From NCBI GenBank assembly GCA_903840355.1, contig CAIMFJ010000002.1, forward strand, positions 1 through 64,000: DNA of 64,000 nt, in the 5' to 3' direction. The translations under genes were made by a program, and so were the position numbers. Below the pieces are notes generated by a model. The model had not been told where the DNA came from and did not search any database. It worked only from the letters and a program-made list of their open reading frames with translations. Positions 52,157-56,483 of this stretch are shown here, piece after piece. Source of the DNA: an uncultured Opitutia bacterium (GTDB lineage Bacteria > Verrucomicrobiota > Verrucomicrobiia > Opitutales > UBA953). The stretch's first letter is position 1. Each line of letters starts with the position of its first letter.

Positions 52157-52180
52157 GTAGGGACGCCGGAGTACCCCTTT
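52157..52180 (+). repeat. Possible decayed single REP
   Basis: A GTAG foot followed by GGACGCC matches the start of a REP, but the second stem arm is lost. It lies about 40 bases left of the first intact REPIN and has no partner hairpin. It may be a remnant or chance. Confidence 0.3.
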
Positions 52181-52200: not shown

Positions 52201-52321
52201 GTAGGGACGACATTACCATGTCGTCCGCTCGCGCCGTCCAACGCTACCTGCCCCCTTTCCGGATCAGCCGCACCCACAACGTACCCTCTGCCAACGGATG
52301 GGATGGTAATCCCATCCCTAC
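52201..52321 (+). repeat. REPIN unit 1
   Basis: Left half: GTAG foot, stem arms GGACGACAT and ATGTCGTCC, loop TACC. Right half is inverted and ends in CTAC: arms GGATGGGAT and ATCCCATCC, loop GGTA (TACC on the other strand). About 70 bases separate the two halves. Both hairpins have perfect 9-bp stems. The GTAG foot directly beside the stem is the feature known to be recognised by REP-associated transposases in other bacteria. Confidence 0.85.
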
Positions 52322-52369
52322 CCATCCCCTTGCCCATCCCCTAACCCCATCCGACCTCCCATGCCTCGG

Positions 52370-52490
52370 GTAGGGACGCCATCACCATGTCGTCCGCTCG
52401 CGCCGTCCCACGCTACCTGCCCCCTTTCCGGATCAGCCGCACCCACAACGTACCCTCTGCCAACGGATGGGATGGTAATCCCATCCCTAC
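52370..52490 (+). repeat. REPIN unit 2
   Basis: Same layout as unit 1. The left stem has one mismatch (GGACGCCAT against ATGTCGTCC) and a CACC loop. The right half (52465-52490) is perfect, with loop GGTA and a CTAC foot. A CCTCCCATGCCTCGG flank precedes units 1, 2, 4 and 5, so the duplicated segment is longer than the REPIN itself. Confidence 0.85.
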
Positions 52491-52577
52491 CCACGCCTTC
52501 CGACCTAAATTCCCCTAAGAAATTCCTGAAGGACTTATGCCTTCGTAGGACTTAACACCCCCCACCATCGTCGTGAG

Positions 52578-53030
52578 ATGCACTGGCCTCAACGTCACTG
52601 GCTACAACATGACCGGCCCAGCTGGGTAGATGCTCACGACCCTATTTTTATTACGTTTTGTGGCCTACCCCGGGGGTTAAATCAATTCGCCAAACCCACT
52701 GTTTGGACACGTCTAGTTGCAACTGCTGAGCACCTATATCTCCATCACAGGTGTGAACCGCTCTTGCTTTTAGCGATGCCAGACCACGTTCATCTTTTAG
52801 TGAGAATTCATACCCGATTCGGCATTCGAGCTTACATCCAACAATTCAAACACAGCAGTGGTTACGGTCTAAAACTTCGCTGGCAGTCTAATGCTTTTGA
52901 TCACCGAATTCGGGGTCAACAAGGGGTGATGGTGCAATGGCACTACATTTTGCAAAACCCGGTCCGTGCCCAATTGGTCGCTCATCCCGACGATTGGCCC
53001 TACCGCAAAACCTGGAGCCCTAATGGGTAG
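52578..53030 (+). CDS. REP-associated tyrosine transposase (RAYT, IS200/IS605-like)
   Basis: A 150-residue protein of the Y1 HUH transposase family. Residues 66-75 read AMPDHVHLLV and hold the metal-binding H-x-H (His70, His72). Tyr123 in WHYILQNPVRAQLV is the expected nucleophile for single-strand DNA cleavage. Family knowledge says such enzymes act on REP hairpins with a GTAG foot. Two such units lie on its left and three on its right, in the same orientation, which fits a domesticated transposase with its own REPIN array. The last codon is TAG at 53028-53030, which is also part of the GTAG foot of REPIN 3. Length is normal for the family and no frameshift is seen. A short hairpin (GAAGG / CCTTC, 52527-52543) lies upstream of the start. 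Confidence 0.9.
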   Translation: MHWPQRHWLQHDRPSWVDAHDPIFITFCGLPRGLNQFAKPTVWTRLVATAEHLYLHHRCEPLLLLAMPDHVHLLVRIHTRFGIRAYIQQFKHSSGYGLKLRWQSNAFDHRIRGQQGVMVQWHYILQNPVRAQLVAHPDDWPYRKTWSPNG

Positions 53031-53148
53031 GGACGACATTACCATGTCGTCCGCTCGCGCCGTCCGACGCCGCCTACCCCCTTTCCAGATCGGCCGCACC
53101 CCCAACGTGACCCTTTGCCAACGGATGGGATGGTAATCCCATCCCTAC
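53027..53148 (+). repeat. REPIN unit 3, overlapping the RAYT stop codon
   Basis: Left half: GTAG at 53027-53030, stem GGACGACAT / ATGTCGTCC, loop TACC. Right half: stem GGATGGGAT / ATCCCATCC at 53123-53144, CTAC foot at 53145-53148. It lacks the CCTCCCATGCCTCGG flank of the other units because the RAYT coding sequence runs directly into the foot. Confidence 0.88.
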
Positions 53149-53183
53149 CCACGCCTAACCCTATCTGACCTCCCATGCCTCGG

Positions 53184-53304
53184 GTAGGGACGACATTACC
53201 ATGTCGTCCGCTCGCGCCGTCCGACGCCGCCTGCCCCCTTTCCAGATCGGCCGCACCCCCAACCCACCCTTTGCCAACGGATGGGATGGTAATCCCATCC
53301 CTAC
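53184..53304 (+). repeat. REPIN unit 4
   Basis: Both halves are perfect: GTAG foot 53184-53187 with loop TACC, and right stem 53279-53300 with CTAC foot 53301-53304. It starts 157 bases after unit 3, showing tandem arrangement. Confidence 0.88.
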
Positions 53305-53339
53305 CCACGCCTAACCCCATCCGACCTCCCATGCCTCGG

Positions 53340-53460
53340 GTAGGGACGACATTACCATGTCGTCCGCTCGCGCCGTCCGACGCCGCCTGCCCCCTTTTAA
53401 CCTTGGCCGCACCCCCAACGTACCCCTCTGCCAACGGATGGGATCGTAATCCCACCCCCA
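53340..53460 (+). repeat. REPIN unit 5, decayed right end
   Basis: The left half is perfect (GTAG 53340-53343). The right half has loop CGTA, one stem mismatch (ATCCCACCC) and no CTAC foot; it runs into a C-rich and A-rich stretch before the ppdK terminator. This unit is probably no longer mobile. Confidence 0.8.
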
Positions 53461-53475
53461 CAAAAAAACCCCCCC

Positions 53476-53513
53476 ACAAAAAAAGGACGTCATGTGCATG
53501 ACGTCCTTTCAGG
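53476..53513 (-). terminator. Intrinsic terminator of ppdK
   Basis: On the minus strand, 21 bases past the ppdK stop, there is a 12-bp stem (arms at 53482-53493 and 53498-53509, core GGACGTCAT / ATGACGTCC, loop of four) followed by a run of T. This is a textbook Rho-independent terminator. Its core differs from the left REP stem by one compensated base pair. Confidence 0.88.
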
Positions 53514-53533: not shown

Positions 53534-56296
53534 TTACTGCTTCTTCGCGCGCTTTTCTTCGACGGCGGCTTGGGCCGCTGCCAAACGAGCCACGGGCACG
53601 CGGTAAGGCGAGCAGGACACGTAAGAAAGGCCCACGCGGTGACAGAACTTCACCGACTCAGGCTCACCACCGTGCTCACCGCAAATGCCCAACTTGATGT
53701 CAGGACGGGTCTGACGACCCTTCGCAATCGCGATTTGCACGAGTTGGCCGACGCCGGTTTGATCGAGCGTCGCAAATGGGTTCTTCTTGAAGATTTCGTT
53801 CTCGGTGTAAGCACCCAGGAAGTTACCCATGTCATCGCGCGACACGCCCAAGGCGGTCTGCGTGAGGTCATTGGTACCGAAGCTGAAGAACTCCGCCGTG
53901 TGGGCGATTTCATCGGCCGTCAAAGCACCGCGAGGGACTTCGATCATCGTGCCGACGCTGTAAGCAATCTTCACCTTCTTTTCCTTTTGCACTTCCGCGG
54001 CAACGCGGTGGATGACTTCGACTTGCAAGTCCAACTCACGCTTAAAGCCCACGAGCGGCACCATGATTTCAGGCTTCACCTTGATACCCTTCTTCATCAC
54101 GGCCGCCGCGGCTTCAAAGATCGCGCGCGCTTGGGTCTCCGTGATTTCTGGATACGCAATACCTAAGCGGCAACCGCGGTGACCGAGCATGGGGTTGAAC
54201 TCGTGCAAGGCCGCCACGCGAGCGACGACTTTATCTTTCGAGATGCCCAACTTCTTCGCCAACTCGGCTTGCGCCTTGTCGTCATGCGGCACGAATTCGT
54301 GCAAGGGAGGATCGAGCAGACGAATCGTGGCTGGCAAACCGTTGAGGGTTTGGAAAATGCCCGTGAAGTCGGCACGCTGATAAGGCAAGATCTTCGCCAA
54401 GGCTTTCTTCCGGCCTTCCAAAGTCTCGGCCAAAATCATCTCGCGCACGGCGTCGATGCGATCGCCTTCGAAGAACATGTGCTCGGTGCGGGTGAGGCCA
54501 ATGCCTTGAGCACCGAACGCCAACGCTTGCGCGGTCTGCTCGGGATTGTCCGCATTGGTGCGCACTTGTAAGCGCGTCACTTGCGAGCACCACTTCATCA
54601 ACTGCACGTAATTCTGATACTTCTCGGTCTTCTGCGCAGCCTTGTCGTTGTTCAACAAGCCAGCGATGATTTCCGAAGGAGCGGTCTTGATTTGACCCGC
54701 GTACACCGTACCCGCGGTGCCATCGATGGAGAGGTAGTCGCCTTCCTTGAAGGTGTGACCAGCAATGGTCGTGGTCTTTTTGTCGTAATCGATTTGCACG
54801 GCGGAAGCCCCGCACACGCAAACTTTACCCATCTGACGAGCCACGAGGGCGGCGTGCGAAGAAACGCCACCGCGAGCAGTGAGAATGCCTTCGGCGGCAA
54901 TCATCCCGCGTAAATCTTCAGGCGAGGTTTCGACGCGCACGAGCAAGACTTTCTCGCCCTTCTCGGCAGCGCTGACAGCCCGCTCGGCGTTGAAGTAAAT
55001 GCGACCAGTGGCCGCACCAGGACCTGCAGGCAAGCCGGTGGCGATGGTCTTGGCCTTCTTCACTTCGCTCAAGTCGAAGATCGGCGCTAAGAGTTGCTCC
55101 AACTGATCAGCCGGGTTGCGCAAGATGGCGGTTTCCCAATCGATGAGTTTTTCCTTCACCATGTCGGCCGCAAACTTCAAAGCCGCGGCGGCGGTGCGCT
55201 TACCGTTGCGCGTTTGCAACATGAAGAGCTTACCTTCTTGAATCGTGAACTCGATGTCTTGGACATCCTTGAAATGCTTTTCGAGTTTCTTGCGGACGTC
55301 GAGGAGTTGGGCGTAGCTGTGGGGCATCACGTCCTTCAACTTCAACACGGGCTCAGGCGTGCGCACGCCGGCGACCACGTCTTCACCTTGAGCGTTCACC
55401 AAGAACTCACCGTAAAATTCGTCGGTACCATTCGCAGGGTTGCGCGTGAAGGCCACGCCCGAACCCGACTTGTCACCGGTGTTACCGAACACCATCGCTT
55501 GCACGTTCACCGCGGTACCCCACTCAGCGGGGATGCCATACTTGCGGCGATACACAATCGCACGGTCATTCATCCACGAGCTGAACACGGCACCGGCGGC
55601 GCCGCGGAGTTGATCCCAAGGATCGTTCGGGAACACCTTGCCCGTGCGGCTCTTGACGAGCTGCTTGAAGCGCTTGACGAGTTCTTGTTGGTCGGCCGCG
55701 GTCAAAGCGGAGTCTTCCACGTCGCCGTGGTACTTCTCATGCTTGTACTCTTCAATGACCGACTCGAAAGGCTCATGGTCTTCGCCTTCGCGCTTTTGCA
55801 CGCCCAAGACGACGTCGCCGTACATCTGGATAAAGCGGCGGTAGCAATCCCAAGCGAAGCGAGGGTTCGCGGTCACTTTTTCCAAGGCCAGCACGCTTTG
55901 GTCATTCAGACCTAAATTCAAAATCGTATCCATCATGCCCGGCATCGAATCGCGTGCACCGGAGCGCACGGCGACGAGCAAGGGCATGCCCGTGGTGGCC
56001 CCAAACTTCGTGCCCATGATCTTTTCCATGTTCGCCACACCGGCTTCCATTTGAGCCTGCAAAGCGGCGGGATAGGTGCGCTTGTTCGCGTAGTAATACG
56101 TGCAAACTTCCGTCGTGATGGTGAAGCCTGGAGGCACGGGCAAACCGATGCGGGTCATTTCCGCAAGGTTCGCACCTTTGCCGCCGAGGAGGGCCTTCAT
56201 CGTGCCGTCGCCATCAGCTTTACCGGCGCCCCAAGTGTAAACAATCTTGGTGGACTTAGCCGATTTGGATTTTGTGGAGGATTTGGTCTTAGCCAT
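53534..56296 (-). CDS. ppdK: Pyruvate, phosphate dikinase
   Basis: A 920-residue enzyme that interconverts pyruvate, ATP and phosphate with phosphoenolpyruvate, AMP and diphosphate in the cytoplasm. The N-terminal nucleotide-binding domain has [10 protein letters not shown] (residues 38-47) and [16 protein letters not shown]. The phosphohistidine domain has [16 protein letters not shown] with His481 as the phosphate carrier. The C-terminal PEP/pyruvate barrel has [13 protein letters not shown] and GICGEHGG with Cys872. I start at MAKTKSS (56296); the frame stays open for 44 more codons upstream, but that extension is Pro/Leu-rich and unlike the family. The Lys/Ser-rich first 17 residues are an extra tail. 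The gene stands alone and ends in a strong terminator. No Shine-Dalgarno is seen. A TTGACA at 56389-56394 could be a minus 35 box, but no good minus 10 follows. Confidence 0.96.
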
Positions 56297-56483
56297 ATGT
56301 AAAAGGGGGAGCGGGCTGCACGAGGGATGCCAAGGTTGCCTTAGACCTTCCGTGCAGGAGGGCAAAAGAAGGGGAATGAAAGGGGGTCTGTCAATGTCGG
56401 AGGGACAACTCCAGCCCGTGGTACGCAAAAGTCACCCAGGCCCGATGACACCCTCAAAAAGTTCCGCCCCGACGCCCTTAAGC

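Follow-up and report, generated by a model that had tools for sequence, protein, structure and literature searches.

REPIN-RAYT systems are known mainly in Proteobacteria, as an initial annotation of the locus described here pointed out, yet Opitutus terrae, a member of the Verrucomicrobia, was already reported to be highly enriched in GTAG repeats, which fall into the families GTAG-17, -19 and -20 (Di Nocera 2013, PMC3733652). Co-evolution of RAYTs and their REPs is also already published (PMC2817692). The initial annotation offered the pattern of stem and loop as a clue to what the transposase reads, a question previously tested in vitro for a Stenotrophomonas RAYT, where the foot and the first loop base are critical for cutting and changes in the stem are mostly tolerated whereas mismatches are not (PMC8266576). 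Bertels and Rainey guessed that a two-hairpin 'clover', and not one long hairpin, is the active fold usable by a RAYT (2011, PMC3116915). According to Di Nocera et al. (2013), the preference that REPs show for unequal dimers 'has no obvious explanation'; they also remarked that such dimers may escape clearance (PMC3733652). Here we describe an array from an uncultured Opitutia bacterium that is a REPIN-RAYT system of the known bacterial kind, in a phylum already on record for such repeats.

The stretch of DNA that we analysed (the window) is 64,000 nucleotides long. At 52201-53461 it contains an array of five REPIN units, that is, ten inverted hairpins, with two units upstream and three downstream of a RAYT gene, an arrangement that agrees with the initial annotation. 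The left REP of unit 1 (52201-52226, strand +) reads GTAG-GGACGACAT-TACC-ATGTCGTCC and the right REP (52296-52321, strand -) reads GTAG-GGATGGGAT-TACC-ATCCCATCC; both are exact arms that fold as single-stranded DNA. Between them lies a spacer of about 70 bp (52227-52295, no strand) that is common to the five units. The left (strand +) and right (strand -) REPs of the other units are at 52370-52395 and 52465-52490 (unit 2), 53027-53052 and 53123-53148 (unit 3), 53184-53209 and 53279-53304 (unit 4), and 53340-53365 and 53436-53461 (unit 5). All five units had been described as carrying the two hairpins, and this holds exactly (GTAG, 9-bp stem, TACC) for eight of the ten arms. The other two are slightly decayed: the left REP of unit 2 contains GGACGCCAT with a CACC loop and 8/9 pairs, and the right REP of unit 5 has a GTGG foot, a stem GGGTGGGAT with one G.T wobble and a TACG loop. 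Folded as single-stranded DNA, the window hairpins gave -9.5 and -9.0 kcal/mol (z -5.7 and -4.1). The units recur with periods of 156-169 bp. Their spacers are conserved, with one set of variants upstream of the RAYT gene and another downstream, which points to probable local tandem duplication on each side.

Several other features lie close to the array. A lone GTAGGGACGCCGGAGTACC at 52157-52175, just ahead of unit 1, looks like a decayed REP. A near-perfect palindrome, AAAGGACGTCATGTGCATGACGTCCTTT, is found at 53482-53509, just past the end of a PPDK-like gene (53534-56428, strand -), and is probably the intrinsic terminator of that gene; it has GGACG in common with the REP stems, but no GTAG. 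On the other side, positions 1-51696 (strand -) are taken up by a single unbroken open frame of no fewer than 17,232 aa, which runs off the contig start, contains adhesin/autotransporter-like repeats of the TGATTVNAGTL type and starts about 500 bp from the array.

The gene at 52578-53030 (strand +) encodes a TnpA_REP-like Y1 transposase of 150 aa, which PHROGs annotates only as 'transposase'. It scored 28.6 bits against Pfam Y1_Tnp, above the cut-off, and 56 bits against NCBIfam NF047646 (REP_Tyr_transpos), below the curated cut-off of 80 bits, which is a naming threshold and not a biological feature. Because the protein has the fold and the residues of a RAYT, as detailed below, we read this shortfall as distance from the lineages in the model and not as exclusion. 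The best sequence match was 4ER8, the TnpA_REP bound to a REP hairpin (E 6e-4). An AlphaFold model (pLDDT 88) also matched 4ER8 best, with Z 14.8 over 139 residues and IS608 TnpA next (best chain, Z 10.9), and Foldseek again returned 4ER8 as the best match. By sequence, Foldseek and Z score the Y1 HUH fold is nearer to TnpA_REP than to IS200. The HUH motif is H70-V71-H72 and the catalytic tyrosine is Y123; in 18 aligned RAYTs, H70 and Y123 are invariant and H72 is present in 17. In E. coli, GTAG is contacted by W94, Q95, E100 (or D), H101 and R104 (PMC6006769). The corresponding foot-contact motif, W102 Q103 ... D108 H109 ... R112 (WQ....DH..R), is invariant in the 18 aligned proteins.

The gene and the hairpin are physically joined in that the foot of the left REP of unit 3 (53027-53030) supplies, as its TAG, the RAYT stop codon. 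Across RAYT loci the stop was inside or touching the downstream REP, in its foot, loop or stem, in 27 of 48 distinct loci, this one counted, and was within 3 bp of it in four more. The overlap spans about a dozen hairpin types (RAYT loci L032-L116) and ties gene and hairpin together. This count extends remarks by Nunvar et al. (PMC2817692) and Di Nocera et al. (PMC3733652).

We searched the genome (2.27 Mb, 99% complete) with hairpin patterns and scanned the stretches around the matches more finely. The pattern GGRNNNNATYACSATNNNNTCC, in which only the stem ends and the loop region are fixed, had 62 matches compared with 0 for the reversed control, so the hairpins are not a product of chance; another version of the pattern had 59. 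A TGCG-loop pattern found 54 further hairpins plus one chance match (control, 0). The finer scan gave a total of 138 hairpins at 28 places on seven contigs, 128 of them beyond the window array. They are palindromic hairpins with an unpaired 5' foot, which is GTAG in 130. The initial annotation had made its reading depend on a genome search for further copies with foot and loop, and such copies are plentiful; its constant foot is borne out. Two of its other generalizations did not hold. Two loop classes, TACC and TGCG (64 copies), are about equally common in this genome, so the loop is not generally constrained, and where two stem types had been seen there are at least ten. The TACC class has the stems GGACGACAT, GGATGGGAT, GGAGGGGAT, GGACGTGAT and GGATGGCAT, and the TGCG class, of which L048:2451-2700 holds examples, has GGAGGCTG, GGAGGCTA, GGACGGTG, GGACGACG, GGACGATG and GGACGAGG. 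A C.T mismatch closes the TGCG loop and the stems are otherwise perfect. The hairpins form BIME-like mosaics of up to ten, with recurring spacings of 37, 42, 44, 51 and 90 bp. Within mosaics the identity of the stem is set by orientation, and the two loop classes occur in hybrid pairs of the same geometry.

Copies are dispersed and mostly intergenic, 125 of 138 being outside frames of at least 120 aa and several of the frames that hold the other 13 being spurious, though clustering is strong: 104 hairpins are in four stretches that together make up 49 kb. These clusters (C3:3-38 kb, C8:277-288 kb, C1:161 kb and C6:4 kb) are mostly near contig ends and fill many successive intergenic gaps, with few hairpins elsewhere. 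They are possibly one region split by the assembly. Sampled GC skew showed no flip at the clusters (+0.10 to +0.12 on contig C3, -0.10 at the end of C8), dnaA is at C5:378 kb, and no link of the clusters to origin or terminus was found. Integron attC sites were also considered for the hairpins and were rejected, given the GTAG foot, the short perfect hairpins and the adjoining RAYT.

We asked how the stems vary using 32 distinct 26-mers, 30 from this genome and two from relatives. Paired cells made up 95.5% of the set. Double-sided changes occurred in 58 cells compared with 17.5 in shuffles, in line with the covarying stems first reported. The covariation score was 0.516, compared with 0.129 when shuffled (0/500 shuffles as high) and at most 0.242 when the 3' partner was slid. 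The two foot-proximal stem pairs are always G-C, stem positions 4, 6, 7 and 8 vary, with up to four pair types, and some stems contain a G-U pair. Because of this covariation and the invariant foot-proximal pairs, we conclude that the stem is kept as structure, yet its first bases are not free. The freer stem sequence of the initial annotation is thus correct as regards conservation of structure and incorrect for those first bases.

RAYTs were present in 24 of 57 searched genomes, this genome counted, and GTAG hairpins adjoined 33 of the 34 RAYT loci first examined. The RAYT loci have in common the GTAG foot, an overall hairpin length of about 20-22 nt and, with few exceptions, a GG start. Loops in other RAYT lineages are TGC, TGCC, GGC, GAC, CGC, CAC, CCCT and CTACGT. 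On the RAYT tree the loop required 19 changes (minimum 17, shuffles at least 27) and the stem 22 (minimum 22, shuffles at least 29). The hairpins are therefore linked to the RAYT and diverge with it: loop and stem follow the RAYT lineage and, since both differ among lineages in a way that tracks the tree, the constraint on the loop holds within a lineage only. This genus and its neighbours contain about 18 RAYT lineages, each with its own hairpins.

The TGCG class was absent from all 56 relatives searched. The nearest loop to it is CTACGT, beside the RAYTs of L062, L065 and L097. One RAYT was found in this genome, and a search here for a second that would account for the TGCG class as its cognate found none. 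That the window RAYT is the one that moves these hairpins is probable; because the TGCG class is without an obvious cognate RAYT, movement of all hairpins by one RAYT is unproven.

Stems of paired arms differed throughout. Among close inverted (head-to-head) pairs within 150 bp in the whole genome, equal stems were seen in 0 of 43. When stems were shuffled over positions, 4.5 equal pairs were expected and 0.7% of shuffles had none (P 0.007). Array duplication makes the pairs of a single genome non-independent, so lineages, grouped by hand, were compared as well. Stems were unequal in 13 of the 14 RAYT lineages that have close pairs and equal in all four lineages in which the RAYT lies between two single REPs about 500 bp from each other (Fisher P 0.0016; P 0.006 if two sister lineages are counted as one). 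Calculated DNA energies of the window units favoured two hairpins (-18.4 kcal/mol) over an inter-arm duplex (-15.0 kcal/mol). Copying one arm onto the other brought the duplex to about -34 (-33 to -37) kcal/mol, and it was then favoured over two hairpins. In 8 of 16 relative loci that were folded, the inter-arm duplex was still favoured, but equal arms would have made it about 6 to 18 kcal/mol stronger. Unequal arms weaken the long hairpin and do not always abolish it. The window unit, an inverted pair with a conserved spacer, is thus REPIN-like in layout and differs in that two hairpins are favoured over the one long hairpin that is part of the original name.

The divergence of the stems fits the keeping of two readable hairpins and is not proof of it. 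We suggest tentatively that in this lineage selection holds the stems of the two arms apart, keeping foot, length and usually loop, so that the transposase has two hairpins it can read, and that one RAYT acts on both loop classes, which are combined in hybrid pairs of constant geometry. It is also possible, though doubtful, that avoidance of the long hairpin plays no part and that the RAYT distinguishes left ends from right ends, as with the asymmetric ends of IS200/IS605 elements. The rule that orientation fixes stem identity within mosaics would be expected from this, and the ends of IS608 are asymmetric (PMC3116915); however, arm stems are identical in lineages where a single REP lies on either side of the RAYT (CGC, CAC, GAC and TCCY loops), and the two arms usually share their loop, a part read by the Stenotrophomonas enzyme. 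Across the RAYT lineages of this genus and its neighbours, stems nearly always differ within close pairs but are often the same in pairs 500 bp apart, so that the puzzle of unequal dimers and the clover idea can be tested jointly, outside Proteobacteria.

Evidence bearing on movement came from a mosaic at C5:253 kb, between an aminotransferase-type gene and a Der/EngA-type GTPase gene (named from sequence). These genes are separated by 340 bp here and by 48-63 bp in each of the 12 congeners readable at both genes, and a short conserved stretch ahead of the second gene is still recognizable here. The simplest reading is one gain in this lineage. We saw no excision and no target-site rule.

The anatomy, the covariation, the identity of the RAYT, its co-divergence with the hairpins, the empty site in relatives and the energy preference are direct results, and with a probability of roughly 0.88 we read the whole as a REPtron/REPIN system in which a single-strand transposase (RAYT, TnpA_REP) copies non-autonomous hairpin pairs. 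From these results we infer that this RAYT cuts and moves the units, and why their arms are unequal. Where DNA becomes single-stranded, for example at a replication fork, each REP would fold into a hairpin of 22 nt whose 5' foot is GTAG. This foot would be bound by the RAYT with its WQ...DH..R motif; the enzyme would engage the hairpin itself by way of hairpin length and loop, and would cut with Tyr123 using the HUH site. A unit bounded by two inverted hairpins could then leave and re-insert in intergenic DNA, and local copying with tandem duplication, at the 156-169-bp periods, may build the arrays and BIME-like mosaics. With a different stem, each arm would form its own RAYT-readable hairpin and not snap together with the other into a single long one.

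We consider it improbable that the hairpins function chiefly at the RNA level or in supercoiling, for instance as stabilizers of mRNA 3' ends or as attenuators, and are kept by host selection with the RAYT as a passenger. Such a role would suit the small number of copies in frames of at least 120 aa (13/138) and the G-U pair in some stems, but not the tracking of RAYT lineage by hairpin type, the packing of 104 copies into 49 kb, or a mosaic beside a conserved gene that is absent from 12 congeners. It is very improbable that the arrays arose from a single ancestral inverted repeat by plain tandem duplication, transposition playing no part, for while units 3-5 repeat at 156-157 bp with spacer variants unlike those of units 1-2, copies are found at 28 separate places on seven contigs and relatives have an empty site. 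Within the REPIN-RAYT reading, local growth of arrays by duplication is likely.

Compared with described systems, the array is closest by phylum to the GTAG REPs of Opitutus terrae, with which it shares the GTAG foot, several families per genome and inverted dimers. By description of the families, the partners of GTAG-17 and -19 dimers are 1-2 bp apart, whereas arm starts here are about 95 bp apart, and the foot of GTAG-20 is mostly GTGG. The perfect palindrome of 8-9 bp, the GTAG touching the stem and the short loop recall the Group 3 REPtron Sm of Stenotrophomonas maltophilia, which by contrast has a 3-nt loop, one loop class and cutting at CT (PMC8266576). As in Pseudomonas fluorescens, two inverted REPs and a spacer form the mobile unit and there are tandem clusters; those REPINs are depicted with complementary arms that form a single long hairpin, whereas here the arms are unequal and two hairpins are favoured (Bertels and Rainey 2011, PMC3116915). 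E. coli BIMEs (REP y, z1, z2) are likewise mosaics in which several hairpin types alternate in orientation, and TnpA_REP 4ER8 has the same transposase fold, but E. coli stems have a required mismatch bulge and the stems here are perfect, C.T closing only the TGCG loop. The Y1 HUH catalytic fold and hairpin recognition are also those of IS608 and ISDra2 TnpA (IS200/IS605), although the fold score is lower (Z 10.9 vs 14.8) and those are autonomous insertion sequences. To these known systems the present one adds the extent of stem variation in a genome with one RAYT, hybrid pairs that combine two loop classes, and the rule of unequal arms.
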